IMG/VR virus record: IMGVR_UViG_3300046660_000570
Span: 1-33,269 of that record
DNA: 33,269 nt
Strand: one strand, 5' to 3'
Origin: a virus
The notes below the pieces were generated by a model. The model ran no database searches, was not told where the DNA came from, and saw only the letters and a program-made list of their open reading frames with translations. Of this stretch, positions 2,489-17,952 are shown in pieces. The translations under genes were made by a program, and so were the position numbers. Numbering within the stretch: position 1 is the first letter of the stretch; every line of letters starts with the position of its first letter.

Positions 2489-3484
2489 CTAGAAGGCACA
2501 AAGGTCTAATCGATCAAAGCGCAATACCTCTGCCGAAAGCCAGTCATTCGCGGCCGCGAGTCTGGTTTGTAGTGGCTCCAACTCCATCGCCGCCCAAACC
2601 GTCGCTGCGTCTCGGATTGACCCAAACCCGCCGCTGTTCTGGGGCACGATGCCTAGCAGCTGCGGCGGCACTCGCAGCGCTGCCAGCATGTCGTCGCGGG
2701 TGACGCTCTTGATGCCAGTGAACTCGTCCCGGGCGGCCACTTCGCTTACTGGGATGAGCTGCAGGCCGTCCTTTTTGCCGTTCGGCGAGTGGACGAACAG
2801 GTTGCGGAAGTTGCCTGGGCCCCTGGACTGCCGCAGAGCCTCGCGAAGGGCCTCCACGTCGCCCTCCTCCGGTTGCGGGTCGGTCAGGTAGAGGATGAAC
2901 CCGGCGTGCGAGCCGTTGTTGTAGTACTTGCGCCGGAACAAGGTAGCGGACTCGTTGAGCAGCGCGGCCTGGACTGCTGGCATCCATTCCGGAAGGCCGT
3001 AGATCTCCTGGTCGGCATCGGCCTCCCGCAGCTGGAGCACCTCGCCCGGCCTGAACTCGTGCTCGACTTTGCCCGCACGCACCTGGAAGAACTCACCCGG
3101 CTCGACGCCGCGTCTCATGTACTGGGCCAACGGCACCGTCAGGCTGTGGGTTTTCCCAGACAGGGCTCGGCGCCGCTCCACGTACGCCATGCCAAAGGTG
3201 GTGTAGTCCAGCGCCAGCTGTGCGAAGGTGGCGCGGCTCATCAGCTTGTGCGGCCGGAAGGTGCGCACCAGCATGTTGCGCTTGAACGTCAATCCGCTCT
3301 GCAGGTAGGGATTTGCCCTGGTGGTGCGCGACAGGCCTTGCAGGTCCACCGGCGGCTCGTAGTAGCGCCCGTTTCGCCAGCATTCCAAGTAGTCCAGGAA
3401 GCCGCGCGAATCCAGCACCGGCGTGGGATCGCCAAAGGTGAATGCCTCGATGCCAGGGCTCGGTGACGGGGTGGTATCAGTCAT
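2489..3484 (-). CDS. Q: Portal protein (P2 gpQ family)
   Basis: A 331-residue protein matching the PBSX/P2 gpQ portal family in length (P2 gpQ is about 344) and sequence style. It contains the segments YLQSGLTFKRNMLV, FARY/YVERRR-type blocks and RKYYNNGSHAGFILY, ending in an LRVPPQLLGI...GGFGS region typical of the family. Twelve copies would form the channel at the capsid vertex through which DNA is packaged and to which the tail attaches. Its ATG overlaps the TGA of the terminase gene (ATGA), so P and Q form a leftward late operon as in P2. The frame stays open upstream to 4147, but that extension is only a shadow of the terminase gene. Confidence 0.95.
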   Translation of the reverse strand: MTDTTPSPSPGIEAFTFGDPTPVLDSRGFLDYLECWRNGRYYEPPVDLQGLSRTTRANPYLQSGLTFKRNMLVRTFRPHKLMSRATFAQLALDYTTFGMAYVERRRALSGKTHSLTVPLAQYMRRGVEPGEFFQVRAGKVEHEFRPGEVLQLREADADQEIYGLPEWMPAVQAALLNESATLFRRKYYNNGSHAGFILYLTDPQPEEGDVEALREALRQSRGPGNFRNLFVHSPNGKKDGLQLIPVSEVAARDEFTGIKSVTRDDMLAALRVPPQLLGIVPQNSGGFGSIRDAATVWAAMELEPLQTRLAAANDWLSAEVLRFDRLDLCAF

Positions 3485-5277
3485 CAGAAAATCTCCATGG
3501 AGCCGCGCGCGGCGGTACCGCCTTCCAGCGGCTCGTTCTGCAGCGCATGCATGAGGGCCCAGGCTAGGTCGGCGTGGCCGGTGGTGCGGGAGCGGCCCGC
3601 CCGGTAGGTGACCTGGCGGCCGCTCGGGGTGAGGGTCTTCTGGATGGCCAGAAGCGATTGGGTCAGGTCGGTCCAGCCAGCGTCGTACTCCAGGCGCTCG
3701 TTCTTGATCACGTCGAACGCTTTCAGCACCAGGCGCGTCTTCACCTCCGGGGAGTAGCTGAAGGTGGTGACGCCGGGGAAGAACTGCCGGACCAGCTGGG
3801 CCACGCCGGTTCCCATGCCCGTGGTGTCGATGCCGATATAGGTGACCCAGTACCGCTTGGTCACCAGCTGGATGAAGGCAGCTTGTCCGGCAAAGTCCAT
3901 GCCCTTGAACTGATGGCGCTCGAGCACACGGAACTTGCCGCCTGGCAACGGGGGCGGCGCGACGACGACGATGCCGGCGCTGTCGCCTGATTCGGCGGGG
4001 TCGTAGCCCACCCATACGGCGCGGTCCGCATAGGGCCGGACTGCCAGTGGCTTGAAGACGTCGGCCCACTCCACCCAGCTGTCCACCTGGCAGGGCTGCA
4101 GCAGCGTGAGCGGGAAGATGCTGGCGCTGTCGTCTACGAACTCGCACATCAGCAGGTTGGCGAACTCTTCCGCGCTGTAGTCCCGGCGCAGCTCCTCCAC
4201 ATCGAACAGCTCGCAGCCCCGGCCTGCTGCGTCCAGCACGGTGACGATCTGCCGCCAGATGGCATCCTCGCAGCGTCGCCCGGACTGCAGGTGTCCGTGG
4301 CTGACATCCACCAGTACCTGCTGCGACTTCGGCCGGCCCTTGTTGAAGCGCTCACCGGTCCAGAAGTCGAACGCCTCGTGGGCCATGGTGGAGGGGGTGC
4401 TGAAGTAGGTCTTGCGCCACTTCTTGTGCATCGCCATGCCGCTGGCGACCTTGTTCAGCTGGTTGAAGCCGTAGGTCCAGAAGAATTCATCGAAGTAGAA
4501 ATTGCCGTGGTAGCCCTGAGCGGTGCGCGCGTTTGTTCCCAGGAAGAACAGCTCGGCGCCGTTGCCCAGGGTGATCGGCTCGCCTGTCAGGTCCCGGTCC
4601 AACACCTCGTGCACGAAGCTGCGCATGTAGCCGAGGAAAATGTGGGCCTGGCTCTTGGAGGCGCTGAGGAAGATCTGGTTCCGCCCCGTGGTGAGCGCAT
4701 CGATCAGCGCTTCACGTGCGAAGTACCAGGTCGCACCGATCTGCCGCGACTTCAGGATGATGCGGGTTCGCTCCGACCCTGCCCGGTACCAGTCGCGCTG
4801 GTACTCGAAGCAGCCATCCACGAAGGCGGACCGCAACCGCTCGACTTCTTCATCGCTGAAGGTGTTCTTGCGAACTTTCTTCTTCGAACCGGCATTGCGG
4901 TTTGCCACCGCCGGGTTGAGGTCGGCCTCGTTCCCGCCACCCTGGTAACGCTGGATGCGCGCCTGGCGCTCCAGCTGACGGTGCAGCAGATCGATCTCCT
5001 TGAAGTCGCCACCGGTCTTGCCTTCCTTGTGGATCAGGACGGCCAAGCGCGCCTCGAGTGCACCGCCGATGCGCTCCACGGTGTCCGCGCGGTCCCAGCC
5101 ATCCCGCGACTTCCAGCTGTGAACCGTCTTGTCCTTCTCGCAGATGAAGCTGGCGATGTCGCACACGCGCCACCCCATCCAGTACAGGTACTTGGCCTGG
5201 CGTCGTGGATCGAGGTGAAGGGTTTGGGCTACGCTGCTCACCTGAACAGGTTGCCGGCCCACGCGCGCGCGCGACAT
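3484..5277 (-). CDS. P: Terminase large subunit, ATPase (P2 gpP family)
   Basis: A 597-residue protein, close to P2 gpP (590). It packages DNA from cos with ATP. The N-terminal 60 residues hold the DPRRQAKYLYWMGW block and a helix-turn-helix typical of gpP. A Walker-A-like LKSRQIGATW follows at about residue 175, and a Walker-B-like FYFDEFFW at about 262. The C-terminal nuclease part has acidic motifs GYDPAESGDSAG, IDTTGMGTG and HADLAW. The start at 5277 has no good ribosome binding site, and a GTG at 5241 is possible. It forms an operon with the portal gene and is divergent from gpO. Confidence 0.95.
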   Translation of the reverse strand: MSRARVGRQPVQVSSVAQTLHLDPRRQAKYLYWMGWRVCDIASFICEKDKTVHSWKSRDGWDRADTVERIGGALEARLAVLIHKEGKTGGDFKEIDLLHRQLERQARIQRYQGGGNEADLNPAVANRNAGSKKKVRKNTFSDEEVERLRSAFVDGCFEYQRDWYRAGSERTRIILKSRQIGATWYFAREALIDALTTGRNQIFLSASKSQAHIFLGYMRSFVHEVLDRDLTGEPITLGNGAELFFLGTNARTAQGYHGNFYFDEFFWTYGFNQLNKVASGMAMHKKWRKTYFSTPSTMAHEAFDFWTGERFNKGRPKSQQVLVDVSHGHLQSGRRCEDAIWRQIVTVLDAAGRGCELFDVEELRRDYSAEEFANLLMCEFVDDSASIFPLTLLQPCQVDSWVEWADVFKPLAVRPYADRAVWVGYDPAESGDSAGIVVVAPPPLPGGKFRVLERHQFKGMDFAGQAAFIQLVTKRYWVTYIGIDTTGMGTGVAQLVRQFFPGVTTFSYSPEVKTRLVLKAFDVIKNERLEYDAGWTDLTQSLLAIQKTLTPSGRQVTYRAGRSRTTGHADLAWALMHALQNEPLEGGTAARGSMEIF

Positions 5278-5287
5278 GCGCGGCCGG

Positions 5288-5306
5288 CGTAGAACGCTGC
5301 GCTACA
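5288..5306. promoter_or_regulatory. Candidate late-activator operator at P/O
   Basis: CGTAG-N9-CTACA lies in the divergent gap between terminase and scaffold genes. The same dyad occurs in the gaps before J (11053-11071) and V (14754-14772), and I saw it in no other intergenic region. This matches the three gaps where late promoters are needed. Ogr/Delta proteins are known to bind a dyad of similar size upstream of P2 late promoters, and the phage encodes an Ogr homologue. Rightward from here, a start point near 5350 would leave a normal leader for gpO. Leftward, the site is very close to the chosen terminase start. Confidence 0.6.
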
Positions 5307-5345
5307 GGTACTTCCCGTTGAAGCACCCGCACCTGCCACTGACCA

Positions 5346-5382
5346 TGGGTCATCGCATCAGCACCCGATGCGCGACGACCCA
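5346..5382 (+). repeat. Imperfect inverted repeat before gpO
   Basis: TGGGTCATCGCATC (5346-5359) pairs with GATGCGCGACGACCCA (5367-5382), with one mismatch and a two-base bulge around a 7-base loop. In RNA it would form a stable hairpin that ends four bases before the AGAGG ribosome binding site of the scaffold gene. It could tune translation of gpO or protect the 5' end of the late mRNA. Confidence 0.4.
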
Positions 5383-5394
5383 GGCAGAGGCGAC

Positions 5395-6261
5395 ATGGCC
5401 AGCAATTCCGACAACAAGCAGCGCTCCCGATTCTTCCGCGTAGCCGTCGAAGGCGCGACCACCGACCGACGCGAGATCAGCCGGCAGGACATCCTGGACA
5501 TCGCGGAGACCTACAGCCCGGAGGTCTACGGCGCCCGGATCTGGATCGAGCACCTGCGCAGCAAGCTGCCCGACGGCCCGTTCCGCGCCTACGGCGACGT
5601 TGTCGCGGTCAAAGCCGAGGAAGTCGAGATCCAGGGCCAGACCAAGCTGGCGCTGTTCGCCCAGGTCGAGCCGACCGGGGAACTGGTGAACCTGGTCAAC
5701 AACCTGAAGCAGAAGGTCTACACCAGCATCGAGATTGCCCCGAACTTCGCGGGCAGCGGTCGCGCTTACCTGTACGGCCTTTCGGTCACCGATTCGCCGG
5801 CCAGCCTTAGCACCACCATGCTCGCATTCTCCGCCAAGCATCCGGAGCACAGCCCGCTGCAGGACCGAAAGCTGGCGCCGGAGAACTGCTACTCCGAGGC
5901 AGCCGAAGTCACCGTGGTGTTTGAGGACGAGACCCCCTGCACTCGCCCCGGCCCAGTCGCCGCCTTGCTGGGCAGCCTTGGTTTCGGGCAGCGGAAGAAG
6001 GACCCCGCTCCAGCGCCAGTGGCCGACAGCCATGAGCTGGAGGCGTTCGCTAACAAGCTGCTGGATGCGGTGAACGAGCAGGACGCCGCCGTCGCCGAAC
6101 TGTTGCAGAGCAACCGCAGCCTGCGCGCCGAGATACAGAGCCTCACCGCCCAGATGAACGGCGTGCGCAAGACCTTGGACGAGACACCGCAGCACTTCAA
6201 TCAGCGCCCCATCGTTCCGGGCAGCGCGGGCGATGACGCGGTCAACGCGACCGACTGCTGA
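5395..6261 (+). CDS. O: Capsid scaffold/maturation protease (P2 gpO family)
   Basis: A 288-residue protein, near P2 gpO (284). The ATG at 5395 is chosen over 5368 because AGAGG lies five bases upstream. The N-terminal half is a serine protease. D24, H53 (WIEHLRS) and S111 (YTSIEI) sit where the P2 triad D19, H48, S107 would put them: the D-H spacing is identical and the H-S spacing is one residue shorter. The C-terminal half (about residues 205-265) is a helical coiled coil that acts as scaffold. It directs assembly of the capsid protein encoded next and then cleaves itself and the capsid and portal proteins. Confidence 0.94.
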   Translation: MASNSDNKQRSRFFRVAVEGATTDRREISRQDILDIAETYSPEVYGARIWIEHLRSKLPDGPFRAYGDVVAVKAEEVEIQGQTKLALFAQVEPTGELVNLVNNLKQKVYTSIEIAPNFAGSGRAYLYGLSVTDSPASLSTTMLAFSAKHPEHSPLQDRKLAPENCYSEAAEVTVVFEDETPCTRPGPVAALLGSLGFGQRKKDPAPAPVADSHELEAFANKLLDAVNEQDAAVAELLQSNRSLRAEIQSLTAQMNGVRKTLDETPQHFNQRPIVPGSAGDDAVNATDC

Positions 6262-6298
6262 CAGCACCCTACCCCACTCGCCTTCCTGGAGCACCCCC

Positions 6299-7315
6299 AT
6301 GCGCACCGAAACCCGCCAGCACTTTGATGGCTTCACCCAGCAGGTTGCCCGCCTCAACAACGTGGGCAACGTTGCCCATACGTTCGCGGTGGATCCGGCC
6401 GTGCAGCAGACCATGGAAACGCGCATGCAGGAGAGCAGCGCCTTCCTCTCGGCCATCAACATGCCAGGCGTGGTCGATCTGAAAGGCGAAAAGATCGGTG
6501 TCGGTATCAACGGCACCATCGCCGGCCGCACCGACACGCGGGGCGATGGCGAGCGAAAGCCGGCCGACGTCACCGCGCTGGACCAAAACGGCTACGAATG
6601 CGTCCAGACCAACTACGACACCGCCCTGCCCTACGCTCGCCTGGACGCCTGGGCACGCCACAAGAACTTCCAGACCCTGATCCGCGACGCCATCATCCGC
6701 CGTCAGGCCCTCGACCGGATCATGGTGGGCTTTAACGGCACCAGCATTGCCGACACCACCAACCGCGACACCCATCCGCTGCTGCAGGATGTCAACAAGG
6801 GCTGGCTGCAGAAGTACCGGGAAACCGCACCGCAGCGGGTAATGCATGAGGGTAGGCTCGATTCGGGCCAGATCCGGATTGGCGGCGAAGACGCGGACTA
6901 CGCCAACCTGGACGCGCTGGTGATGGACCTGGTGGCCAACATGATCGACCCGTGGCACCAGGAGGATCCCGAGCTGGTGGTGATCTGCGGCCGATCGCTG
7001 GTGCACGACAAGTACTTCCCGATCATCAACAAGGACAACGCCCCGACCGAGCAGGTTGCCGCCGACCTGGTACTGGGCACCAAGCGCATTGGCGGGCTGC
7101 AGCCGGTCGTGGTGCCGTTCATGCCGCCCAAAGGCCTGATGGTCACCTCGCTGAGCAACCTGTCCCTGTACTGGCAGATCGGCGGCCGTCGCCGCTTCAT
7201 CCAGGAGCAGCCAAACAAGAACCGGGTCGCCAACTTCGAATCGTCCAACGATGACTACGTGGTCGAAGACTACGGTCGCGGCGCGGTGGCCGAGAACATC
7301 GAAATGGAGCCCTGA
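6299..7315 (+). CDS. N: Major capsid protein (P2 gpN family)
   Basis: A 338-residue HK97-fold major head protein, similar in length to P2 gpN (357 before processing). The ATG at 6299 has GGAG about eight bases upstream. Recognisable family segments include the N-terminal MRTETRQHFDGF, the TDTRGDGERKP block, NYDTALPYARLDAWA and the C-terminal DYVVEDYGRGAVAENIE. The protein forms the icosahedral shell after scaffold-directed assembly and N-terminal trimming by gpO. It lies 37 bases after gpO and is followed three bases later by the small terminase, in the O-N-M-L order of P2. Confidence 0.96.
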   Translation: MRTETRQHFDGFTQQVARLNNVGNVAHTFAVDPAVQQTMETRMQESSAFLSAINMPGVVDLKGEKIGVGINGTIAGRTDTRGDGERKPADVTALDQNGYECVQTNYDTALPYARLDAWARHKNFQTLIRDAIIRRQALDRIMVGFNGTSIADTTNRDTHPLLQDVNKGWLQKYRETAPQRVMHEGRLDSGQIRIGGEDADYANLDALVMDLVANMIDPWHQEDPELVVICGRSLVHDKYFPIINKDNAPTEQVAADLVLGTKRIGGLQPVVVPFMPPKGLMVTSLSNLSLYWQIGGRRRFIQEQPNKNRVANFESSNDDYVVEDYGRGAVAENIEMEP

Positions 7316-7318
7316 GCC

Positions 7319-8026
7319 ATGGCCGATACGCCGGCAAAACGACATGTGCAGCGGCTGCTGGCGGCGTCGGCGGCGACGCAGGCGGCGGGCGGCCAGCTGA
7401 TGGCAGGCACGCCCATCCACCAGCAGATGCAGCTGCAGCTCGCGGGCGACCGCGCACGCCTGAAGCAGCTGCAGTCGACCCAGGCCAAGGCGCAGCTGAA
7501 GCTGGCGTTGCTGCCGACCTACACCGCCTATGTAGACGGCGTGCTGGCCGCCAACCTAGGGGGCGACGACCTGGTCGTATCCACAGTGATGCTGTGGGCC
7601 ATCGACGCCGGCGACTACCAGCGAGGTCTGCATGTCGCGGAGTACGTGCTTGGCCACGGCCTCGCTATGCCTGACAGCTTCAGCCGCACTACCGGCTGTG
7701 TGGTGGCTGAGGAGGTGGCGGTGGCCGCCCTCAACGCACAGCGCACTGGCACCCGGTTCGATCAGGCCGTGCTGGATCGGGCCGTGGCGCTCACCGAGCA
7801 CTACGACATGCCAGACCAGGTCCGGGCCAAGCTGCTGCTGGCACGTGGCCGCAACTCGATGCTGCGCGAAGACGAGCAGCCTGTCACTTCGGCTCCTCAG
7901 CTGAACGCAGCTATCGAAGATCTGCGCCGTGCCATCCAGCTGCACGACAGCTGCGGTGGCAAGGAAGACCTGAAGCGCGCCGAGCGCCTTCTGAAGCATA
8001 TCGAGGCAACCCAGTCCCAGGACTGA
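7319..8026 (+). CDS. M: Terminase small subunit (P2 gpM family)
   Basis: A 235-residue protein, near P2 gpM (247). It recognises cos and recruits the large terminase. The N-terminal region (about residues 1-55) is rich in lysine, arginine, glutamine and alanine and would bind DNA. The middle has the AIDAGDYQRGLHVAEYVL block typical of gpM, which describes the protein's helical core. The start codon follows the capsid stop by three bases, and the M position in the O-N-M-L operon is conserved. No unusual feature seen. Confidence 0.93.
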   Translation: MADTPAKRHVQRLLAASAATQAAGGQLMAGTPIHQQMQLQLAGDRARLKQLQSTQAKAQLKLALLPTYTAYVDGVLAANLGGDDLVVSTVMLWAIDAGDYQRGLHVAEYVLGHGLAMPDSFSRTTGCVVAEEVAVAALNAQRTGTRFDQAVLDRAVALTEHYDMPDQVRAKLLLARGRNSMLREDEQPVTSAPQLNAAIEDLRRAIQLHDSCGGKEDLKRAERLLKHIEATQSQD

Positions 8027-8129
8027 GCCTCCCACCGAGCGTCCCCGCGACCCCGCCGGCTCGGGGCCGATCACCTGGCAACCCTCCGCCTGGTGTGACG
8101 CCCCGACCACCGGCGACCCAGGAGATTCC

Positions 8130-8597
8130 ATGAGCAGCTTCACCGCCAATGCGTCCCCCGTTGTCCTGCAGCGCCCCATCACCGCCGGGCCGTTCTGGCC
8201 GGAAGTGGATGTGGCCGCGTTGCGCGATGCCATGCGCGTACCCGGAGACGTGGCCGCGCCGCGCCTGCGCGGGGCGGCGGTGATGGCGGTCATCGCGGTA
8301 ACACGCGAGCTGACGGCGTGGAAGGACAAGGTTGAGGCCGCTGGGCATCTGACACTTGCAGACGTGCCCGCGCCACACGTGGATGGTGTCTCGGTGCTGC
8401 AGCAGCTTTTCCTGCGCGCGGTCTACTGCGCCACGGCGGTCGAGCTGCATGAGCGCTACCGCTCCTATGACGCCACTGCGCAGGGCAACCAGCGGGCCGA
8501 TGAACTCACCCCGACCATCGATGAACTCCGCCGCGATCACCGCGGCGCCGTCCGCGATCTGCTCGGCATCGACCGCGTAACCGTGGAGCTGATCTGA
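8130..8597 (+). CDS. L: Head completion/stabilisation protein (P2 gpL family)
   Basis: A 155-residue protein close to P2 gpL (169). It binds filled heads and readies the portal vertex for tail joining. An AGGAG ribosome binding site lies about six bases before ATG 8130. The block GPFWPEVDVAALRDAMRV near residue 25 and the RSYDATAQGNQRADEL segment at about 110 are family-like. A 103-base non-coding gap separates it from gpM. The stop overlaps the start of the next gene (TGATG), as usual for L-X. Confidence 0.92.
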   Translation: MSSFTANASPVVLQRPITAGPFWPEVDVAALRDAMRVPGDVAAPRLRGAAVMAVIAVTRELTAWKDKVEAAGHLTLADVPAPHVDGVSVLQQLFLRAVYCATAVELHERYRSYDATAQGNQRADELTPTIDELRRDHRGAVRDLLGIDRVTVELI

Positions 8598-8812
8598 TGC
8601 GCGTGATCGCACAACAGGGCGACACCCTTGATGCCCTGTGCCACCGGCACCTGGGACGCACCGCAGAAGTAGTGGAAAAGGCCTTCGCCCTCAACTACGG
8701 CATCAGCCTGCACGGCCCCTTCCTGCCCATGGGATTGACAGTGGATCTACCGGATGCGCCATCGTCCGCCGCCGGCACCGCCGTGCGCCCGCTGGTCCAG
8801 CTCTGGGACTGA
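8597..8812 (+). CDS. X: Tail protein X (P2 gpX family, LysM-like)
   Basis: A 71-residue protein, near P2 gpX (67). It has the LysM-like block QGDTLDALCHRHLGR followed by VEKAFALNYGI and a proline-rich end, typical of the tail X family. It is essential for P2 tail assembly and probably acts at the tail hub or in peptidoglycan contact. The ATG overlaps the gpL stop, and its own stop overlaps the start of the first holin gene. Confidence 0.93.
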   Translation: MRVIAQQGDTLDALCHRHLGRTAEVVEKAFALNYGISLHGPFLPMGLTVDLPDAPSSAAGTAVRPLVQLWD

Positions 8813-9168
8813 TGATGACCGAGCCCACCTCGACCGGCAGCATGATGGTCCTGGCTACCGGCGTCGGCCTTGCGTCGCTGCTGCCGGGCATCGAAACCGA
8901 TGCATTCATCGGGGCCTTTGCCGGCGCCACGCTGTTCGTCGTGTCCGCCAAGGACCTCTCCCTGTTCAAGCGCCTGGTCTACCTGGCCATCAGCGTGGTG
9001 GCTGGCTACCTGGGCGGCACCGAGGTGATGCGCCGGTTCGACGTGGCATCCAGCGGCCTGGCTGCCTTCCTGTGTGCCGCCACCATCATCACCCTGACCT
9101 TGACGTTGATCGAACGCAGTCGGGCAGCGCGCCTCCCCCAACCACGGAAGGAAACCTCCGATGGATGA
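8812..9168 (+). CDS. Holin-like membrane protein
   Basis: A 118-residue protein with hydrophobic stretches at about residues 10-28, 32-48, 55-72 and 80-102, and a charged C-terminal tail. It lies between gpX and the endolysin, where P2-like phages encode the holin that releases endolysin from the cytoplasm. Two adjacent ATGs (8812 and 8815) open the frame. Dual starts are known to set holin timing in some phages, but here they may be incidental. The end overlaps the next gene by eight bases. The exact holin family is not certain. Confidence 0.8.
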   Translation: MMTEPTSTGSMMVLATGVGLASLLPGIETDAFIGAFAGATLFVVSAKDLSLFKRLVYLAISVVAGYLGGTEVMRRFDVASSGLAAFLCAATIITLTLTLIERSRAARLPQPRKETSDG

Positions 9169-9436
9169 CCTTCTCACCGCCGCCACGCTCACCTGCAGCC
9201 TGGCCATCTGCGTTCGGCTGCTTATCTACCGCGCACCGGCAGGCTCACGCCACCGACGGGGTATTGCCTTCGTCGCGTGGCTGCTGATCGCCAGCACGGG
9301 TGGCCAAGCGGTTCAGATCCTGCTGCAGGACGCGCACGCCACGCCAAGCGCCTGGCATCTGGTGCTGCTTGCCGTGCTGCTGATCGCCATCTGCCGCGCA
9401 CGCGGCAACCTTGCCCGTCTGTTCGGAGTGGATTGA
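9161..9436 (+). CDS. Putative three-helix holin (Phage_holin_3_7 type)
   Basis: A 91-residue protein with three hydrophobic segments at about residues 5-23, 36-52 and 64-80. It carries a RAPAGSRHRRG loop after the first helix and a short basic end. The pattern fits the PF05449 family of putative 3TM holins common in P2-like phages of Xanthomonadaceae. A purine-rich site (GGAAGGAAA) precedes ATG 9161. Together with the preceding membrane protein it forms a two-component holin or holin/antiholin pair. Confidence 0.82.
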   Translation: MDDLLTAATLTCSLAICVRLLIYRAPAGSRHRRGIAFVAWLLIASTGGQAVQILLQDAHATPSAWHLVLLAVLLIAICRARGNLARLFGVD

Positions 9437-9438
9437 CC

Positions 9439-10074
9439 ATGCTGACCGCCGCCCTGCTTGCCCGCATCCTGCAGTGCCCCATCACCCGCGCACAGCGCTG
9501 GGTGCAACCGCTGAACGCTGCCATGCAGCGCTTTGGCATCACCACGCCGCTGCGCGTGGCTCACTTCCTGGCCCAGCTGGGCCATGAGAGCCTGAGCCTG
9601 TCCCGCCTGGAAGAGAACCTGAGCTACAGCCGCGCTCGCCTCCTGGAAGTGTTCGGCGCCCACATTGCACCTGGCGAGGCCGCCGACCATGTCCACCAGC
9701 CAGAGCGCTTGGGCAACCGCGTCTACGCGGGTCGCAACGGAAACGGCGATGCGGCCAGCGGGGATGGCTACCTCTACCGTGGCCGAGGACCACTGCAGCA
9801 CACCGGCCGGGGCAACTACCGGCGCGTGGGTGAACTGATCGACCAGCCGCTGGAGCTGCAGCCCTCGCTGCTCATCGAGCCGGAAACCGGGGCGATGGCT
9901 GCCGCTGCCTTCTGGCAGGACAACAGCCTCAATGCCCTTGCCGACCAGCGCGATGTACTGGCCGCCAGCCGCGCCATCAACCTCGGCAACGCACGCTCCC
10001 GGTTCACCCCGAACGGGATGGCGGACCGTCTCTCGCGGCTGCAGCGCGCCCTGCAGGCCCTGGAGGTGCGCTGA
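9439..10074 (+). CDS. GH19 endolysin (chitinase-like lysozyme)
   Basis: A 211-residue glycoside hydrolase family 19 protein that cleaves the peptidoglycan glycan backbone to lyse the host. The catalytic acid is the E of LAQLGHESLSLS (near residue 50) and the second acid is in LEENLSYS. The family signature GYLYRGRGPLQHTGRGNY lies at about residues 112-130, and AINLGNARSR is near the end. There is no signal peptide, so release depends on the upstream holins. It replaces the P2 gpK-type endolysin at the same place. The start follows the holin stop by two bases. Confidence 0.95.
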   Translation: MLTAALLARILQCPITRAQRWVQPLNAAMQRFGITTPLRVAHFLAQLGHESLSLSRLEENLSYSRARLLEVFGAHIAPGEAADHVHQPERLGNRVYAGRNGNGDAASGDGYLYRGRGPLQHTGRGNYRRVGELIDQPLELQPSLLIEPETGAMAAAAFWQDNSLNALADQRDVLAASRAINLGNARSRFTPNGMADRLSRLQRALQALEVR

Positions 10075-10111
10075 TGACGTGCCGCGATGACGCATGGGCT
10101 GGGACTGAAGC

Positions 10112-10597
10112 ATGAAGAAACATCAGCTGCTGAGGCAGCACCTGGTCACGGCGGTGCCGGCGTTGGCCGTCGACCCTGAGCGCCTGCTGGTATTCGTGGA
10201 TGCCGGCGGGCTCAACGGCACCTACCGACCGGGGCTGAGCTACGAATACCGCTATACCTTGGAGCTCATCTTGAGAGACTTCAGTGGCCCTCCGGAAGCG
10301 GTCATGCTGCCGCTGCTGCAGTGGCTCACCCGCCATCAGCCCGAACTGCTGGCCATCCCGGCCAATCGCGAGAAGATCGTGTTCGAAGTGGATGTGCTGG
10401 CGGATGAGCTGGTCGATCTGGCCATCAAACTACCGCTGACCGAGCGGGTGCGTGTGTCGCGTGACGCTGCCGGCGCTCTGCAGCTGGAACATCTGCCCGA
10501 GCCGCTACCGGAGCGGGAGCATGCTGATGCCCTGAGTGGTGGGGACCTGTTTGCCGACGGTGCAGTCATCGCACATCTGCCTGCCATCACCGAATGA
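10112..10597 (+). CDS. R: Tail completion protein (P2 gpR family)
   Basis: A 161-residue protein close to P2 gpR (155), which with gpS finishes the tail and allows joining to the head. It starts MKKHQLLRQHLVTAVPAL and contains the GLSYEYRYTLELILRDF block typical of gpR. Its stop overlaps the gpS start as ATGA. The 37 bases separating it from the endolysin leave no room for the LysB/LysC-type lysis genes found here in P2. Confidence 0.92.
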   Translation: MKKHQLLRQHLVTAVPALAVDPERLLVFVDAGGLNGTYRPGLSYEYRYTLELILRDFSGPPEAVMLPLLQWLTRHQPELLAIPANREKIVFEVDVLADELVDLAIKLPLTERVRVSRDAAGALQLEHLPEPLPEREHADALSGGDLFADGAVIAHLPAITE

Positions 10598-11052
10598 ACG
10601 AGGACCTGCAGCGCCTGGAGACATGGGTTGCGCCACTTCTGCAGAGGCTAAAGCCTGCCGACCGTGCGCGCCTGGCTCGAAAAGTCGGTACCGCCCTCCG
10701 CCGCTCCCAGCAAAAGCGCATCGCGGCGCAGCGAAGTCCGGACGGCACCGCCTACGCGCCCCGAAAAGCGGCGCCGAAGCGGTCGAAGGCTGGACGGATC
10801 AAGCGCGGTGCGATGTTCGTCAAGCTGCGCCAGACGCGGCACCTTCGGGCCCGAGGCACGGCCGCCGAGGTCGTGGTGGGATTCAGCGGCAGGGTGTCCC
10901 GCATCGCCCGCATCCATCAGGAGGGCAGGCAGGAAGCCATTGGCACCAACCGCATCAAACACGTCTATGCCCGCCGGCAACTATTGGGTTTCACGTCGAC
11001 TGATGAGCAGCTGGTCCGCGACCTCATCATGGACCACCTGCGCGCCGTATAG
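10594..11052 (+). CDS. S: Virion morphogenesis/tail completion protein (P2 gpS family)
   Basis: A 152-residue very basic protein, the same size as P2 gpS (150). It has the family segments LARKVGTALRRSQQKRIAAQ, PDGTAYAPRK and GFSGRVSRIARIHQEG. It acts with gpR in tail completion. It ends the rightward late operon that starts at gpO, since an 85-base gap with a candidate activator dyad follows. Confidence 0.93.
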   Translation: MNEDLQRLETWVAPLLQRLKPADRARLARKVGTALRRSQQKRIAAQRSPDGTAYAPRKAAPKRSKAGRIKRGAMFVKLRQTRHLRARGTAAEVVVGFSGRVSRIARIHQEGRQEAIGTNRIKHVYARRQLLGFTSTDEQLVRDLIMDHLRAV

Positions 11053-11071
11053 CGTAGGAACCACCGCTACA
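11053..11071. promoter_or_regulatory. Candidate late-activator operator before J
   Basis: CGTAG-N9-CTACA begins one base after the gpS stop. It is one of three copies of the YGTAG-N9-CTACA dyad, each in a late intergenic gap. If an Ogr-type activator binds about 55 bases upstream of the transcript start, transcription would begin near 11117. That leaves a short leader before the GTG at 11138 and would exclude the ATG at 11102 as start of gene J. A TTAAGT at 11079-11084 could be a -10 box in an alternative reading. Confidence 0.6.
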
Positions 11072-11137
11072 CCCCAGCTTAAGTGCCTTGTCTCGCGTGC
11101 GATGGGACGCTGCAGCGGATCCCAAGCCGGTGCCGCC

Positions 11138-12130
11138 GTGTCCGCCTTTACCGCCGTTGACCTATCCCGCCTCCCCCTACCCGACGTGTTCGAGCAGGTC
11201 TCATTCGAACAGCTTCTGGAACAACGGGTGGCAGACTTCCGTCGCTACATGCCCGAGTTCACCGCACTGGTGGAGCCCGATCCGCTATACAAGTCTCTTC
11301 AGGCCAGCGCTTACCGCGAGCTGGTACTGCGTGAGCAGTTCAACCAGCGGGCCAAAGGGCTGTTTCTGGCCTATGCGCAGGATGGCGACCTGGATAACCT
11401 GGGCGCGCCGTTTGGCGTCACCCGGAAAGAGCTGACGCCTGCCGATGAAGACGCGGGCACCCCAGCCATCTACGAAAGTGACGCGGAGTTCCGGCGCCGA
11501 ATACAGCTCTCGCCCGAGGGACTCTCAGTAGCGGGCCCGGAAGGGGCGTACATCTTTCACACGCTCGGTGCGGATCCGCGCGTGCTGGATGCAAGTGCGA
11601 GTAGCCCCAGGCCGGACGATCTGCGGAGCCTGATCTTCTCGGTGCTGCAGGCCCACGAGGCGCCACCGCAGCTGATGGAAGAAATGGCCAGCCGGCTCGA
11701 TGCGGCCGTGTGGCCCGGCACTGTAGTGGTCTCCGTGCTGTCCCGCGAGGGGAATGGCAGTGCGGACCCCGACCTGGTCGAGGCGGTAGACCGGGCGCTC
11801 AGCTCCCAGGATGTCCGTCCCTTGACGGATGAAGTTGCCGTTGCCTCTGCTGAGATTCGTCCGTACGAGGTGGTCGCAGACCTGTTCACCTTCGACGGAC
11901 CGGATGGCGAAGTGGTACTCCGAGAGGCGGAGCGCCGTCTGACCAGTTATCAGGGCGAGGCCCACCGCCTTGGGCGCAACATTTCGCTGTCGGCGCTCTA
12001 TGCGCAACTTCACGCCGAAGGGGTGCAGCGCGTAGTGCTTCACAGCCCATCCGAGGATCTGGTGGTGGACCGCCACCAGGCCGCGTATTGCACGGCAGTG
12101 AGCATCAACCACGTGGGCACCGATGAATAA
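11138..12130 (+). CDS. J: Baseplate assembly protein J (P2 gpJ family)
   Basis: A 330-residue baseplate wedge protein (P2 gpJ is 302). The GTG start at 11138 gives VSAFTAVDLSRLPLPDVFE, which lines up with the start of P2 gpJ. The ATG at 11102 in frame would add 12 unlike residues. The FTALVEPDPLYKSLQASAYRE block near residue 45 and the AYAQDGDLDNLGAPFGVTR block near residue 78 are typical of the family. In P2 the order is V-W-J-I; here J follows S directly, and V and W come after the fibre genes. Confidence 0.93.
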   Translation: MSAFTAVDLSRLPLPDVFEQVSFEQLLEQRVADFRRYMPEFTALVEPDPLYKSLQASAYRELVLREQFNQRAKGLFLAYAQDGDLDNLGAPFGVTRKELTPADEDAGTPAIYESDAEFRRRIQLSPEGLSVAGPEGAYIFHTLGADPRVLDASASSPRPDDLRSLIFSVLQAHEAPPQLMEEMASRLDAAVWPGTVVVSVLSREGNGSADPDLVEAVDRALSSQDVRPLTDEVAVASAEIRPYEVVADLFTFDGPDGEVVLREAERRLTSYQGEAHRLGRNISLSALYAQLHAEGVQRVVLHSPSEDLVVDRHQAAYCTAVSINHVGTDE

Positions 12131-12677
12131 GTCGCCCAGCCTGCTTCCGCCCAACACCACACCGCTGGAGCGGGCGATGGAAGGCGCCGATGCCCGGGTG
12201 CTGAGCATGCGAATGGGCCACGCCGACATCAAGAACCCAAGCCGCTGCCCGGCCCCGTTGTTGCCGTGGCTGGCGTGGGAGCTGTCCTTGGACACCTGGG
12301 ACAGCGCCTGGCCAGAACACATCAAGCGGCAGCGCATCGCCAGCGCCATCAACATCCAGCGCCACAAGGGAACGGCGGGCAGCGTCCGCGACGTGATCGA
12401 GTCCTTCGGCGGCACCGTGGTGATCCGGGAGTGGTGGGAGCAGGAGCCGCGTGGCAACCCGCACACCTTTGAGCTGCTGCTCATCCTCTCCGGACGCCCG
12501 GGCATTGATCCCTCCGCCAAATATGTGGAAGACGTCATTGCAGAGGTCAACCGCACCAAGCCGGTGCGGTCCCACTTTACGTTCACGCAAGGCGCTGAAT
12601 TCGAAGAGCGTCTGGGCGTCATCGCGGCATTCCGCCCTGCCGTCTATCGCCGTATGAACATAAGCTTTAAGGATTAA
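12123..12677 (+). CDS. I: Tail/baseplate protein I (P2 gpI family)
   Basis: A 184-residue protein close to P2 gpI (176). It contains LLPWLAWELSLDTWDSAWPE at about residues 44-63 and RHKGTAGSVRDVIESFGG at about 80-97, the two signature blocks of phage tail protein I. It joins the wedge with gpJ and provides the attachment point for the tail fibre. Its ATG overlaps the end of gpJ by eight bases, and the fibre gene follows after four bases. Confidence 0.95.
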   Translation: MNKSPSLLPPNTTPLERAMEGADARVLSMRMGHADIKNPSRCPAPLLPWLAWELSLDTWDSAWPEHIKRQRIASAINIQRHKGTAGSVRDVIESFGGTVVIREWWEQEPRGNPHTFELLLILSGRPGIDPSAKYVEDVIAEVNRTKPVRSHFTFTQGAEFEERLGVIAAFRPAVYRRMNISFKD

Positions 12678-12681
12678 CCGT

Positions 12682-14133
12682 ATGCGAATGAAGTTTACCG
12701 ATCTGGGCCGGGCGGCCATGGTCAACGCGCGCAACACCGGCACCAACGCGGTCACCGTTACCGAGATCGGAGTGACCGAGCTGGGCTTCCTTCCCGATCC
12801 AGATGGTGGCGATCAAACACTGCCAGGAGAACGCAAGCGAATCGCAACGTTCGGCGGCAAGGTCATCGCCGATGACGTCATACATGTGACAGTGCGCGAT
12901 GAGACCGAGGATGCCTACTCACTGCGCGGCATTGGACTGTATCTCCATGACGGCACGCTGCTGTGCCTCTATGGGCAGGAACGTGTGATCCTGGAAAAGT
13001 CATCACAGGCAGTGATGTTGCTCTCGGCCGATCTGATGCTTGCGGACATGGATAGCACTCAGATCGAGTTCGGAAGCGCTGGCTTCCTCAATCCTCCGGC
13101 GACGACCGAAGAGCATGGGGTGGTAGAGCTGGCGACCGACCATGAGGCAAGCTCGGGGAAAGACAGTCGCAGGGCGGTAACCCCTCAGGCGCTGACAGCA
13201 GCCCTCGATCATCGCCTGGGCCGAGGCGCACCTACTGAACTCGCGAAAACGATCATTGCGGAGGAGGGAAATGCTGGTGTTCGTGCGCTCCTCGGGCTCG
13301 GATCAGCCGCGCAGAAGGATGACGGTGAAGAGAATGGCTTGGACGCAGACCTGCTTGATGGACGACACGGTGACTTCTATCTGGACTGGTCCAATCTCAC
13401 CGGCGTACCGGCGAGCACCCATATACCAGGCCAGATCGTAGTATTTGCCGGTAGACAGCCGCCACCTGGCACGCTGTTGTGCGATGGCCGCCTGTTGGCA
13501 ATCGAAGCTTACCCAAGGCTTTGGGCAGCGATCGGAGATACGTATGGCGGCGATGCTTCTACAGGAACATTCAGCCTTCCACGACTCGACGATGAGAGCT
13601 GCATCATTCACACCAGCGACTCGGCCATCGTGGGGACAACCAGTCCCGGTGCCGTAATAGCCCACAGCCATGGAGCAAGTGCGTCGGCAGCAGGCAGCCA
13701 TGCCCACTCCGCTTCGGCGAGCTGGAGCGGCGACCACGTACATGGCGCATGGACCGACGGGCAAGGCCACCATGGTCACGGTGGCAGCACGACGGGCGCT
13801 GGGGAGCACCAGCACCTCACACCGTTCGCAGAAGGCGGTCACGCCTACCCGTGGGGCGCGGACTACAGCAACCATATGGGCTCGCGAGGAAATATCGACT
13901 GGGATAACCCGTGGCCCTATACCAGCCACGCCGGCCATCACGCGCACCACATCGCGGCCGACGGCAATGGCAACCATGCTCACAACATCGGCATGAACGG
14001 TGCAGGCGGTCATGGCCACAACATCTCTGTCGGTGCTGTGGGCGACCACGGCCACGTCATTAGCGTCGGGGCTACAGGGGTATCCCAGAACCTTCCCGCC
14101 GGAATTCGAATGCTGTACTGCATTGCCTACTAG
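12682..14133 (+). CDS. H: Tail fibre with collar domain and iron-type HxH tip
   Basis: A 483-residue receptor-binding fibre. Residues 1-150 form the baseplate-attachment domain. A fibre repeat, EHGVVELATDHEAS, lies at about 151-180. A tail-collar domain (PGTLLCDGRLLAIEAYPRLW ... FSLPRLDD) spans about 260-310. The C-terminal 160 residues carry nine HxH motifs (HSH, HAH, HVH, HGH, HQH, HAH, HAH, HGH, HGH) spaced by glycine- and serine-rich stretches. In T4 gp37 such HxH pairs bind a line of iron ions in the needle-like tip, so a metal-stiffened trimeric tip is expected here. It is shorter than P2 gpH (669). Confidence 0.92.
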   Translation: MRMKFTDLGRAAMVNARNTGTNAVTVTEIGVTELGFLPDPDGGDQTLPGERKRIATFGGKVIADDVIHVTVRDETEDAYSLRGIGLYLHDGTLLCLYGQERVILEKSSQAVMLLSADLMLADMDSTQIEFGSAGFLNPPATTEEHGVVELATDHEASSGKDSRRAVTPQALTAALDHRLGRGAPTELAKTIIAEEGNAGVRALLGLGSAAQKDDGEENGLDADLLDGRHGDFYLDWSNLTGVPASTHIPGQIVVFAGRQPPPGTLLCDGRLLAIEAYPRLWAAIGDTYGGDASTGTFSLPRLDDESCIIHTSDSAIVGTTSPGAVIAHSHGASASAAGSHAHSASASWSGDHVHGAWTDGQGHHGHGGSTTGAGEHQHLTPFAEGGHAYPWGADYSNHMGSRGNIDWDNPWPYTSHAGHHAHHIAADGNGNHAHNIGMNGAGGHGHNISVGAVGDHGHVISVGATGVSQNLPAGIRMLYCIAY

Positions 14134-14143
14134 GAAACATCCC

Positions 14144-14746
14144 ATGCAACTCACCGAACCCCATGAGACTTACGGGCATTCCTTCGATGAACATACCCGC
14201 CTTTACCTGCTTCCCGTCAGGATCTTTCCAGAGGCAGACGGCAGCTGCCCGCTCCCCCTTAATACAGTAGATTTCCCTCCTTTCCAGAAGGCAGACCAGC
14301 ATCAGGCCTGGCGTATCAACGAGAAGCAAACGGCGTGGGAGATTGTGGACGACTACCGGGGAGCGATGCTTTGGGAAAAATCGACTGCAATGGGAGCGCC
14401 AAATCGATTGGAGATCAACGAGCAGCCCTCGAGTGGCGTGACACTCCTGGCGCCGCTCGCCATTGAGCCTGGGGAGCCGCTGACCAACCGATGGGATGAC
14501 GAACTTGAACAGTGGCAACTGGTCCCCGACTACAGCCGCGTGCCGGTCTGGGAAAAGGCCACCGGGGCTGTACTACCCATGCTCCTTCCCGGCGATCCAC
14601 TGCCGTTTTCTGCGACAGACATTCCACCTCCACGAGATATGGCCGGACCAGTTCGCTTCGACGATTCGCTCGGCGAGTGGGTTCTGGTTCCTTCGGCTCC
14701 GGTGCTACCGGACGTACCATCCCTTCGCCCCGGTGCCAATGCGTGA
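14144..14746 (+). CDS. Tail fibre assembly-like protein with W-V-x-D-Y repeats
   Basis: A 200-residue protein directly after the fibre gene, in the position of P2 gpG. It holds two clear repeats and a partial third. The first is AWEIVDDYRGAMLWEKSTA (near residue 65), the second QWQLVPDYSRVPVWEKATG (near 123), and the partial one is EWVLVPSAP near the end. The W-x-x-V-x-D-Y/H-R-G pattern is seen in phage tail-fibre chaperones and fibre-associated proteins. Upstream of each repeat lies a WDDELEQ-like or FDDSLGE-like segment. A chaperone or fibre accessory role is inferred from position and motif. Start ATG 14144 follows GGAAAC. Confidence 0.8.
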   Translation: MQLTEPHETYGHSFDEHTRLYLLPVRIFPEADGSCPLPLNTVDFPPFQKADQHQAWRINEKQTAWEIVDDYRGAMLWEKSTAMGAPNRLEINEQPSSGVTLLAPLAIEPGEPLTNRWDDELEQWQLVPDYSRVPVWEKATGAVLPMLLPGDPLPFSATDIPPPRDMAGPVRFDDSLGEWVLVPSAPVLPDVPSLRPGANA

Positions 14747-14753
14747 GGATTGC

Positions 14754-14772
14754 TGTAGATCGGGCGCCTACA
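14754..14772. promoter_or_regulatory. Candidate late-activator operator before V
   Basis: TGTAG-N9-CTACA is the third copy of the late-gap dyad. It lies between the fibre assembly gene and V, where the last late operon (V, W, FI to D) should begin. It overlaps a second inverted repeat, GGCGCCTAC (14763-14771) with GTAGGTGCC (14788-14796), which could form a hairpin in RNA and might end the J-I-H-G transcript. The distance from dyad to the V start at 14819 is short for a -55 activator site. Confidence 0.55.
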
Positions 14773-14818
14773 TAGGCAACCAGATGCGTAGGTGCCACGC
14801 GGCAGCGAGCATGTCCGC

Positions 14819-15367
14819 ATGGAAAGTCGCTTATCCCAACAACTGAGCACCCTGCTGCGCGACGGCGTAGTGACTGAGGTAGATCACAAGCACGCGCGGT
14901 GCCGCGTAAGGTCAGGCGAAAACCACACTGACTACATCCCTTGGTTCACGCCCGCCGCAGGGCAGGTCAGAGTTTGGTCGCCACCAAGCGTAGGCGAGCA
15001 GGTCCAGTTGCTCTGCCGTGATGGCGACATGGCCAACGCGATTGCGCTACCGGCACTGTTCAATGACAAGTTTCCGGCACCGTCCTGCAAGCCCGGGATG
15101 GTTCTCGTCGAGTTCGCCGACCGCTCCAGGCTGACCTACGACAGCACGGCGCACGCCCTTGCGGCAGAGCTGTCTTCCGGCAGCACCGTCAGCATCGTTG
15201 CAAGTGGCGGGGTCCGGATAGCTGGCAATGTAACCATCACTGGCGACGTCAACATCGAAGGCAGGGCGGTGGCGACCGATGACGTGCTTGGTGGCGGTGT
15301 AAGCCTGAAGAACCACACCCATGGCGCCGTGCAGCCAGGGAGCGGCAACTCAGGGCCACCCGAATGA
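14819..15367 (+). CDS. V: Baseplate spike protein V (P2 gpV family)
   Basis: A 182-residue protein (P2 gpV is 211), the trimeric spike that pierces the outer membrane. The start MESRLSQQLSTLLRDGV at 14819 lines up with gpV; a GTG at 14792 would add nine residues. An OB-like N-terminal domain contains WFTPAAGQVRVWSPPSVGEQ, followed by a beta-helix rich in short T/V repeats. It ends with KNHTHG, the HxH pair that binds iron at the tip in P2 gpV. It starts the V-W-FI operon here. Confidence 0.93.
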   Translation: MESRLSQQLSTLLRDGVVTEVDHKHARCRVRSGENHTDYIPWFTPAAGQVRVWSPPSVGEQVQLLCRDGDMANAIALPALFNDKFPAPSCKPGMVLVEFADRSRLTYDSTAHALAAELSSGSTVSIVASGGVRIAGNVTITGDVNIEGRAVATDDVLGGGVSLKNHTHGAVQPGSGNSGPPE

Positions 15368-15714
15368 TCGGCATGTGCGCCTCCACTGGCGCTGTAGCAA
15401 CCGGGAGCGCTCACCTAGCCCAATCGGTCCGCGACATCCTCACCACGCCTCTCGGCTCGCGCATCGCGCGCCGGGACTACGGCTCGCTCCTGCCAGACCT
15501 CATCGACCAGCCCTTCAACGACCTCACCAGGCTGCGCATGTTCGGCGCCGTGGTCACCGCGCTGATGCGCTGGGAACCGCGCATGCAGGTCAGCCGCGTA
15601 TCGCTTTCGCCCGGCGCTTCACCCGGCGCCTTCCAACTTGACTTGGACTACCGCCCGGCCGCTGCCGGCACCCCTTCGACGCTCAGCGTCGCCCTTCGCT
15701 TCCCCATCGCTTAA
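15364..15714 (+). CDS. W: Baseplate protein W (GPW/gp25 family)
   Basis: A 116-residue protein the same size as P2 gpW (115). It is a lysozyme-like wedge protein related to T4 gp25 that starts sheath polymerisation. The block LTTPLGSRIARRDYGSLLPD near residue 30 and the DQPFNDLTRLRMF segment are the family signature. The ATG overlaps the gpV stop (ATGA). Confidence 0.95.
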   Translation: MIGMCASTGAVATGSAHLAQSVRDILTTPLGSRIARRDYGSLLPDLIDQPFNDLTRLRMFGAVVTALMRWEPRMQVSRVSLSPGASPGAFQLDLDYRPAAAGTPSTLSVALRFPIA

Positions 15715-15730
15715 CCACAGGAGTCACCGC

Positions 15731-16903
15731 ATGGCACCCCAGGACTACCACCACGGCGTACGCGTCGTTGAGATCGACGGCGGCGTTCGCCCCATCCGTA
15801 CCGTGGCCACCGCCATCGTCGGCGTTGTCTGCACTTCGGCCGATGCCAGCGACAGCATGTTCCCGCTGGATACCCCGGTACTGATCACCGACGTGCGAGG
15901 CGCCATCGGCCAAGCCGGCACTGAGGGCACCTTGGCCAGCGTGCTGACCGCCATCGCCGACCAGGCCAACCCGGTGACCGTGGTAGTCCGTGTGGCCGAG
16001 GGCGATGAAGCCTCCGACACCATCAGCAACGTCATCGGCACCGTGGCCGACGGCAAGTACACTGGCCTGCAGGCACTACTGGTGGCCGAGAGCAAGCTGG
16101 GCGTGAAGCCGCGCATCGTCGGCGCGCCCGGCTTGGACACCAAGGAAGTCACCACCGCCATCGCGTCCATCTGCAAGAAGCTGCGGGCCATCTCCTACGT
16201 GGGTGTAGGCGACAGCAAGACCGTCGCAGAGATTCTGACCTACCGCAAGCAGTTTGGGGACCGCGAGCTGATGATGATCTGGCCGGATTTCCTGGCCTGG
16301 AACACCCAGACCAGCGCCGCCGACGTCACCTTCGGTACCGCCCGCGCCATCGGCCTGCGTGCATTGATCGACCAGCAGATGGGCTGGCACAAGACCCTGT
16401 CCAACGTGCCGGTGCAGGGCGTGACCGGCATCAGCGCCGACGTCACCTGGGACCTGCAGGATCCGCAGACCGACGCCGGCCTGCTCAACGCCAACGACGT
16501 CACTACCCTGATCAACAGCCGCGGCTACCGTTTCTGGGGCTCGCGCACCTGCAGCGATGACCCGTTGTACGCCTTCGAATCGGCCACCCGCACCGCGCAG
16601 ATCCTGGCTGACACCATCGCCGACGCGATGATGATCTACGTCGACAAGCCGCTGCACCCTTCCACGGTGAAGGACATGCTGGAGACGATCAACGCCAAGT
16701 TCCGCGAGCTGAAGGCCGGCGGCTACGTGATCGATGCCAACGCCTGGTACGACGAAGGCCAGAACCTGCCGACCCAGCTGTCCTCGGGTCGCCTGGCTAT
16801 CGACTTCGACTACACACCGGTGCCGCCGCTGGAGTACCTGCAGCTCAACCAGCGGATCACCGACCGCTACTTCGCCGACTTCGCCAACCGCATCGACGCC
16901 TGA
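15731..16903 (+). CDS. FI: Tail sheath protein (P2 gpFI family)
   Basis: A 390-residue contractile sheath protein, near P2 FI (396). An AGGAG site lies about nine bases before ATG 15731. Family segments include YHHGVRVVEIDGG at the start, VRGAIGQAGTEGTL near residue 56, RGYRFWGSRTCSDDP near residue 262 and LEYLQLNQRITDRYF near the end. The protein forms the outer tail tube that contracts on infection. It is cotranscribed with V and W; no separate promoter is visible in the 16-base gap, unlike P2 where FI has its own late promoter. Confidence 0.96.
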   Translation: MAPQDYHHGVRVVEIDGGVRPIRTVATAIVGVVCTSADASDSMFPLDTPVLITDVRGAIGQAGTEGTLASVLTAIADQANPVTVVVRVAEGDEASDTISNVIGTVADGKYTGLQALLVAESKLGVKPRIVGAPGLDTKEVTTAIASICKKLRAISYVGVGDSKTVAEILTYRKQFGDRELMMIWPDFLAWNTQTSAADVTFGTARAIGLRALIDQQMGWHKTLSNVPVQGVTGISADVTWDLQDPQTDAGLLNANDVTTLINSRGYRFWGSRTCSDDPLYAFESATRTAQILADTIADAMMIYVDKPLHPSTVKDMLETINAKFRELKAGGYVIDANAWYDEGQNLPTQLSSGRLAIDFDYTPVPPLEYLQLNQRITDRYFADFANRIDA

Positions 16904-16919
16904 CCAAGGAACCCCCTGC

Positions 16920-17429
16920 ATGTCCCTGCCCAGCAAACTGAAGAACCTGAACCTGTTCAATGATGGCGTGAGCTATCTGGGCCAGGTCACCGAGTTCAAG
17001 CTCCCCACCTTGACCCGCAAGATGGAGGAGTACCGTGCCGGCGGCATGGCCGGCCCCATCAGCATCGATATGGGCCAGGAGAAGATCGAGGCCGAGTGGA
17101 AGTGCGGCGGCCTGATGCGCGAAGTCCTGCACCAATACGGTGCGGTGTCGCATAACGGCGTGCAGCTGCGCTTCGCCGGCGCCTACCAGCGCGAGGACAG
17201 CGCCGAGACCGACGCGGTCGAGATCGTCATCCGTGGCCGCCACAGCGAGATCGACGCAGGCACCGGCAAGGTCGGCGACGACACCGAGTTCGCGGTCAAG
17301 ACCGCCGCCAGCTACTACAAGCTGAGCATCAACGGCCGCACCGAGATCGAGATCGACATGGTGGGCATGGTCTTCATGGTCAACGGCACCGACATGCTGG
17401 CCGCTCAGCGCCGTGCCATCGGCTACTGA
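16920..17429 (+). CDS. FII: Major tail tube protein (P2 gpFII family)
   Basis: A 169-residue protein close to P2 FII (172) that forms the rigid inner tube through which DNA passes. Typical blocks are KLKNLNLFNDG at the start, VTEFKLPTLTRKMEEYRAGG and GPISIDMGQEKIEAEW in the first half, and TEIEIDMVGMVFMVNGTD near the end. It follows the sheath gene after 16 bases, as in P2. Confidence 0.96.
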   Translation: MSLPSKLKNLNLFNDGVSYLGQVTEFKLPTLTRKMEEYRAGGMAGPISIDMGQEKIEAEWKCGGLMREVLHQYGAVSHNGVQLRFAGAYQREDSAETDAVEIVIRGRHSEIDAGTGKVGDDTEFAVKTAASYYKLSINGRTEIEIDMVGMVFMVNGTDMLAAQRRAIGY

Positions 17430-17455
17430 TTCCCTCTCCATTCCCAGGAACACCA

Positions 17456-17812
17456 ATGAATCTGATCTCTTCGCCTGCCGAAGTCATCGCCGAGCTGGAT
17501 ACGACATCCGGCAAAGTGACCAACACCTCACTTTCCAACATCGAGCTGGATGCTCCGATTTCACGTGGCGACCAGCTCATCACCACCCTGCAGCTGCGCC
17601 GGCCAAACGCTGGCGAACTGCGCGGCATCAAGCTGGCCGACCTGCTGCAGATGGATGTCAGCGCCCTGGCCCTGCTGTTGCCGCGCATCAGCAGCCCAGC
17701 ACTGACGGCCGCTGACGTGGGCAAGCTGGATCCCGCCGACCTGGTCAGCATCGCCACCGAGGTGGGCGGGTTTTTCTTGTCGAAGGCGCAGCGGGAATCC
17801 CTGTCTGCGTAG
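17456..17812 (+). CDS. E: Tail assembly chaperone E (P2 gpE family)
   Basis: A 118-residue protein in the position of P2 gpE (91 residues), a chaperone that coats the tape measure protein before tube assembly. The central PISRGDQLITTLQLRRPNAG and GIKLADLLQMDVSAL segments are typical of phage tail assembly proteins. Near its end, GGGTTTTTCTTG offers a slip site. The -1 frame is open from there through the E' gene, so an E-E' fusion of about 161 residues (107 plus 54) can be made, as in P2. Confidence 0.93.
   Translation: MNLISSPAEVIAELDTTSGKVTNTSLSNIELDAPISRGDQLITTLQLRRPNAGELRGIKLADLLQMDVSALALLLPRISSPALTAADVGKLDPADLVSIATEVGGFFLSKAQRESLSA
17768..17779 (+). other. Probable -1 ribosomal frameshift site (E to E')
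   Basis: The E frame reads GGG TTT TTC TTG here. Slipping back one base on the five-T run moves the ribosome into the frame of E', which has no stop before 17938-17940. The P2 site is TTTTTTG. This one is weaker, since the P-site pairing after slippage (GTT) is imperfect while the A-site pairing (TTT) is good. The conserved frame relation and open -1 frame are seen directly; use of the site is inferred. Confidence 0.65.
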
Positions 17813-17820
17813 AGGAGTTC

Positions 17821-17940
17821 ATGGCCGACATTGCGACAGTCTTCGCTTTCAGCCTGGGCGAACTGTCGCAAATGTCCCTGATTGAACTGATTGAGTGGCG
17901 CGAACGTGCGCGTGTACGAAGTGGAGCTGAGCAGCGGTGA
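17821..17940 (+). CDS. E': GpE-family tail protein (P2 gpE' part)
   Basis: A 39-residue frame beginning MADIATVFAFSLGEL and containing MSLIELIEWRERA, the hallmark of the Phage_P2_GpE family. It can be made as the C-terminal part of the frameshifted E-E' product. It also has its own ATG with GAGGAG directly upstream (short spacing), so separate synthesis is possible. With E it helps the tape measure fold. It lies nine bases after the E stop, in the -1 frame relative to E. Confidence 0.9.
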   Translation: MADIATVFAFSLGELSQMSLIELIEWRERARVRSGAEQR

Positions 17941-17952
17941 TAAATTCTTCCC

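Follow-up and report, generated by a model that had tools for sequence, protein, structure and literature searches.

The 33,269-base virus record IMGVR_UViG_3300046660_000570, analysed over its full length (the window), carries a P2-like late region. P and Q (terminase and portal, identified by Pfam/PHROG; 2489–5241, minus strand) run leftward, and three plus-strand units run rightward: O to S (5395–11052), J to the fibre-assembly protein (11141–14746) and V to D (14819–22714). Compared with P2, there is an extra promoter before J, and V heads the tail operon, so that the window has no F promoter. The closest named relative is Smp131, with about 77% identity across P–L. Outside the late units, two genes adjoining the portal gene (831–2413, plus strand) match the PADLOC candidate defence pair PDC-M53A/PDC-M53B (E 9e-19 and 3e-33), and two genes side by side, each with a PIN_8 (PIN-like nuclease) domain, lie between D and the ogr region (22711–24108 and 24205–25599, minus strand). 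At the right end, past the integrase (30768–31949), a queC gene (Pfam QueC, 260 bits; 32180–32911, minus strand) is probably host DNA beside the integration site.

A preliminary description of this DNA had reported a dyad, YGTAG-N9-CTACA, in the gaps between the late units, and the three copies are present exactly at the coordinates it gave: CGTAGAACGCTGCGCTACA in the P/O gap (5288–5306, centre 5297), CGTAGGAACCACCGCTACA before J (11053–11071, centre 11062) and TGTAGATCGGGCGCCTACA before V (14754–14772, centre 14763). The placement between late units thus stands for all three, but not a one-to-one pairing of dyads and promoters, there being only three dyads for the four promoters: P and O share one, from which they diverge. 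The exact motif occurs only these three times in the window and in none of 100 dinucleotide-preserving shuffles of it. With two mismatches permitted it becomes common (11 matches vs 5.6 expected), and the case for the dyads is therefore built on the exact matches together with conservation. In an unbiased ranking of 4-mer half-sites, covering every one with a spacer of 8–15 in the three gaps, GTAG-N9-CTAC came first with 24/24 positions matched, so the motif is not just one picked by eye.

Conservation was assessed in about 45 IMG/VR loci with a capsid at least 66% identical, the gaps being located by homology and two loci whose sequence stops before the gap being left out of the gap counts. 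The core GTA-N11-TAC is found at the homologous place in 45/45 P/O gaps, 33/36 S/J gaps and 31/32 V gaps. Three of the four misses carry a site with one mismatch (S/J in L008, S/J and V in L046), while the S/J gap of the fourth (L043) looks rearranged. The half-sites are constant across the relatives, and the spacer and adjacent bases vary. When spacers of 4–21 were scanned, only N11 gave a strong enrichment in the gaps, N16 giving a smaller signal (27 matches), and for YGTA-N11-TACR there are 90 occurrences in the 15.6 kb of gaps vs 5 in 739 kb outside them, with 1–5 dyad matches per whole relative record. These counts are non-independent, as each of the four promoters goes back to an ancestral promoter of its own. 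A search of the same gaps in related phages had been suggested beforehand as a check; the motif turned out to be present in nearly all of the relatives and rare elsewhere, that is, neither absent from their gaps nor frequent at random places. Some relatives have extra dyad matches 1–2 kb from ogr; at least two of these, which fall within open reading frames whose peptide is partly conserved, were judged to be coincidental.

The dyads are accompanied by a second element at a fixed distance. In an ungapped alignment with the dyad centre as 0, the P, O, J and V promoters all carry a -10-like NANNMT, usually followed by G, at +44 to +49: CAACCT for P (5248–5253, minus strand), GACCAT for O (5341–5346), GACGCT for J (11106–11111) and GAGCAT for V (14807–14812), the last three on the plus strand. 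NANNMT stands at +44 in 118/119 distinct promoter sequences; of the 19 other offsets tested, 18 had it in none. When a dyad with at most one mismatch was required together with the -10, the window gave exactly four matches, one for each late promoter, and Smp131 gave matches at these four promoters and one further, spurious match. In the sigma-70 -10 element, the two bases that matter most are the A at position 2 and the T at position 6. Their presence here leads to predicted transcript starts near +56 in all four promoters, at 5241 (P), 5353 (O), 11118 (J) and 14819 (V). The O promoter has a TTG about 35 bases ahead of the start. A hairpin, GCATCG-AGAAC-CGATGC, lies just past the predicted O transcript start, and several relatives have an imperfect inverted repeat, TGGG...CCCA, around the J -10 (11103–11124 in the window and at homologous places).

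The predicted starts also bear on the unequal distances between the dyads and the genes, which the preliminary description had flagged as unexplained. The distance from dyad to promoter start is fixed at 56 bp, and it is the length of the leader that varies, with predictions of 0 nt for both P and V, about 23 nt for J (start codon GTG 11141) and about 42 nt for O, whose start codon is probably ATG 5395, preceded by an AGAGG ribosome site. In the window, both V ATG 14819 and P GTG 5241 are positioned at exactly +56; aligned relatives have these codons at +56 or +57 (V at +56, P at either). GTG 5241, at the predicted mRNA 5' end, is probably the start codon of P, as ATG 14819 probably is that of V. 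The fixed distance together with start codons at +56 predicts leaderless P and V messages. The same fixed distance to the -10 is at odds with the reading of the dyads as transcription terminators or RNA hairpins at the ends of units. Their position between operons, and the S–J dyad beginning immediately past the S stop codon, would suit such a function; yet in the P/O gap, between divergent starts, there is no transcript to terminate, the arms are only 4–5 bp with no T run, and the 9-bp spacer is free to vary while the half-sites are fixed. With the -10 distance and the divergent P/O gap both against it, this reading, to which we give next to no credence, was rejected.

The geometry is that of P2 (NC_001895), whose record annotates activator sites at 3057–3087 (shared by P and O), 10239–10266 and 17555–17583 and transcript starts at 3016, 3127, 10308 and 17626. 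These starts lie 55, 56, 57 and 57 bp from the centres of TTGT-N11 dyads, with the -10-like sequences GAAACT and CAATCT, and GAAAAT and TAGCCT shifted by one base. The late promoters of P2 (P, O, V and F) and those of the window are thus alike in the single P/O site, the 55–57 bp geometry, the NANNMT element and the V start, which P2 has annotated at the A of the V ATG (+57, as in phage Dobby). They differ in that the P2 sites are imperfect (GTTGT...), whereas those of the window are near-perfect YGTA-N11-TACR dyads of 19 bp. The P2 activator site has been reported as TGT-N12-ACA (PMC3931495), and the sites in the window have instead the span TGT-N13-ACA. As no exact TGT-N12-ACA is found in P2's own annotated activator sites either, this consensus was not treated as defining. 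In the window, as in P2-type late promoters generally, a site precedes each late unit and is common to the divergent P and O, the dyad lies about 55 bp before the predicted start, and a -10 is present with no regular -35.

Comparable arrangements are found in more distant phages. Pseudomonas phage Dobby (Citexvirus) has TGTA-N11-TACA before P/O, V and F, a -10 at +44 and the V ATG at +57; it differs in its P2-like gene order and in that its ogr-like zinc-finger gene is unannotated, an open reading frame with an Ogr-like cysteine pattern at 27755 (about 3756 in locus L169) being listed as hypothetical. Acidovorax phage Alfacinha1 has TGTG-N11-CACA and the same -10 as the window. In Ralstonia phages phiRSY1/phiRSA1 an Ogr motif, TGTTGT-N13-ACAACA, has been described before four late operons (PMC5694545); compared from this published motif, the half-sites are longer (TGTTGT). 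The B-dependent promoters of coliphage 186 (U32222) resemble those of the window in a C4 zinc-finger activator, a shared divergent site and GAAACT/GACAAT at +44, but have an asymmetric site, GTTGTG...CCA, which is why dyad enumeration gave nothing clear in 186. The same enumeration revealed no clear common dyad in the Burkholderia phages Milagro and FLC5. Of 34 distant P/O gaps, 20 contain TGT-N13-ACA, which likewise spans 19 bp (0–6 contain a version with another spacer), and the remaining 14 have no exact match; nearly all gaps with the motif have -10 elements in both directions, L055 being a clear exception. Chance, or shared ancestry of functionless sequence, might be considered for the dyads, since the relatives have the flanking genes in common and the P/O gap is well conserved overall. 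However, the same motif recurs in three separate gaps of one genome, the half-sites are unchanged where spacer and flanks diverge, and phages as distant as Dobby, Alfacinha1 and the 20 loci retain the span and the -10, which makes this explanation highly improbable.

The candidate activator is encoded by the phage itself. As claimed beforehand, an Ogr homologue is located at 26493–26819 (plus strand): the 108-aa product contains the Ogr/Delta zinc-finger domain (Pfam PF04606, 27.2 bits vs a cut-off of 26.3; PHROG 603, transcriptional regulator), and its cysteines 14, 17, 40 and 45 form the Ogr/Delta pattern C-X2-C-X22-C-X4-C, with only 26% identity to P2 Ogr and 49% to the Smp131 homologue. 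A protein search of genome contigs with Ogr gave one locus only. It has been established that the sites are present and conserved, that their geometry is fixed and agrees with the annotated P2 sites and starts, and that an Ogr homologue is encoded; Ogr binding, promoter activity and the transcript starts are what we infer. The proposal that the dyads are the phage's own late operator has accordingly gained ground, from the conserved gaps, from the P2 activator distance to the -10 in four promoters and from the Ogr/Delta protein, and the dyads are very probably binding sites of this activator, switching on the four late units. Another phage or host protein could in principle bind them as late-promoter control sites, for example the HTH protein whose gene (26113) adjoins ogr. 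This is quite improbable, though, as the -56 position, the 19-bp span and the single site between divergent promoters agree with P2, whose late promoters need Ogr (PMC3931495), and as a diverged lineage (L102–L104; capsid about 65% and V about 32% identical) that has kept an 80–82% identical Ogr has also kept the dyad and -10 in its P/O and S/J gaps. In this lineage there is no dyad before V, which directly abuts the fibre-assembly gene, with no gap.

If the Ogr homologue is the activator, it would occupy the dyad at about -56 and bring in the host RNA polymerase at four promoters, each with a -10-like element but lacking a normal -35, so that the P–Q, O–S, J–G and V–D units would be turned on late in infection. 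The dyad being symmetric, the P/O copy could act in both directions. The distance from activator to start would be constant, the genes differing only in their distance behind the start, and P and V would be translated from leaderless or nearly leaderless mRNAs.

In Smp131 (NC_023588) the same dyads and -10 elements are located in the same gaps, at 4641, 10877 and 14862. Its late sites were published as TGT-N12-ACA-like sequences at 4381–4398 (TGTGGATCAGGATGGCCA), 10964–10981 (TGTCCACATTTACCGCCA) and 14928–14946 (TGGATAGCGCCCAGCCCCA) (PMC3931495). These fall within the coding sequences of P, J and V, or at their beginning, and are not the conserved dyads, which are the better candidates for the late sites. 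The broader conclusion of that paper, P2-like late control via an Ogr homologue, stands.

A further feature lies between dyad and -10. Within the clade, a (CG)4-6 tract is found here in the promoters of P, V and J. The window has it in full before P ((CG)6, 5262–5273, conserved in relatives), in degenerate form before J (CGCGTGCG, 11094–11101, where most relatives have a full (CG)5-6) and not at all before V, and the tract is thus not strictly required. Among distinct spacers, CGCGCGCG occurs in 24/28 of P, 15/18 of V and 14/16 of J, and in none of O; by overlapping counts, there are 204 occurrences within or next to the gaps vs 24 elsewhere in the 755 kb searched. It is also present in the P spacer of 11 of 19 distant loci (29 per kb vs 0.19 elsewhere), and CG tracts are seen in Dobby (O and F) and Alfacinha1 (P, J and F). 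A literature search found no description of a CG tract tied to Ogr-type late promoters. One speculative reading, which we hold to be unlikely on balance, is that the tract is a functional element of such promoters in GC-rich hosts, for instance a flexible or supercoil-sensitive (Z-prone) hinge coupling activation to late, replicating DNA. A scan for the tract plus dyad, covering 297 genomes from a single bacterial family, gave mostly single scattered matches and identified no satellite; only three genomes (G313, G081 and G231) have such a match on a contig that also carries an Ogr gene. In G231 (C1:504949–506501) an Ogr_Delta gene lies just 1.5 kb from a P/O-type dyad with a CG tract; the locus may be a prophage that has been rearranged or reduced, or some other element.

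An Ogr-type late operator set is a known kind of system, and its arrangement is known from P2; here it is newly and precisely located. The exact site was overlooked in the closest published relative, Smp131, and is common to dozens of related phages. This fixes the late-promoter map for a group of Stenotrophomonas/Xanthomonas P2-like phages and corrects the published Smp131 sites, and it provides a rule by which late promoters can be found from sequence only: a 19-bp dyad, a -10 at +44 and a start at +56. It also predicts leaderless V and P transcripts in these phages and highlights the conserved CG tract.
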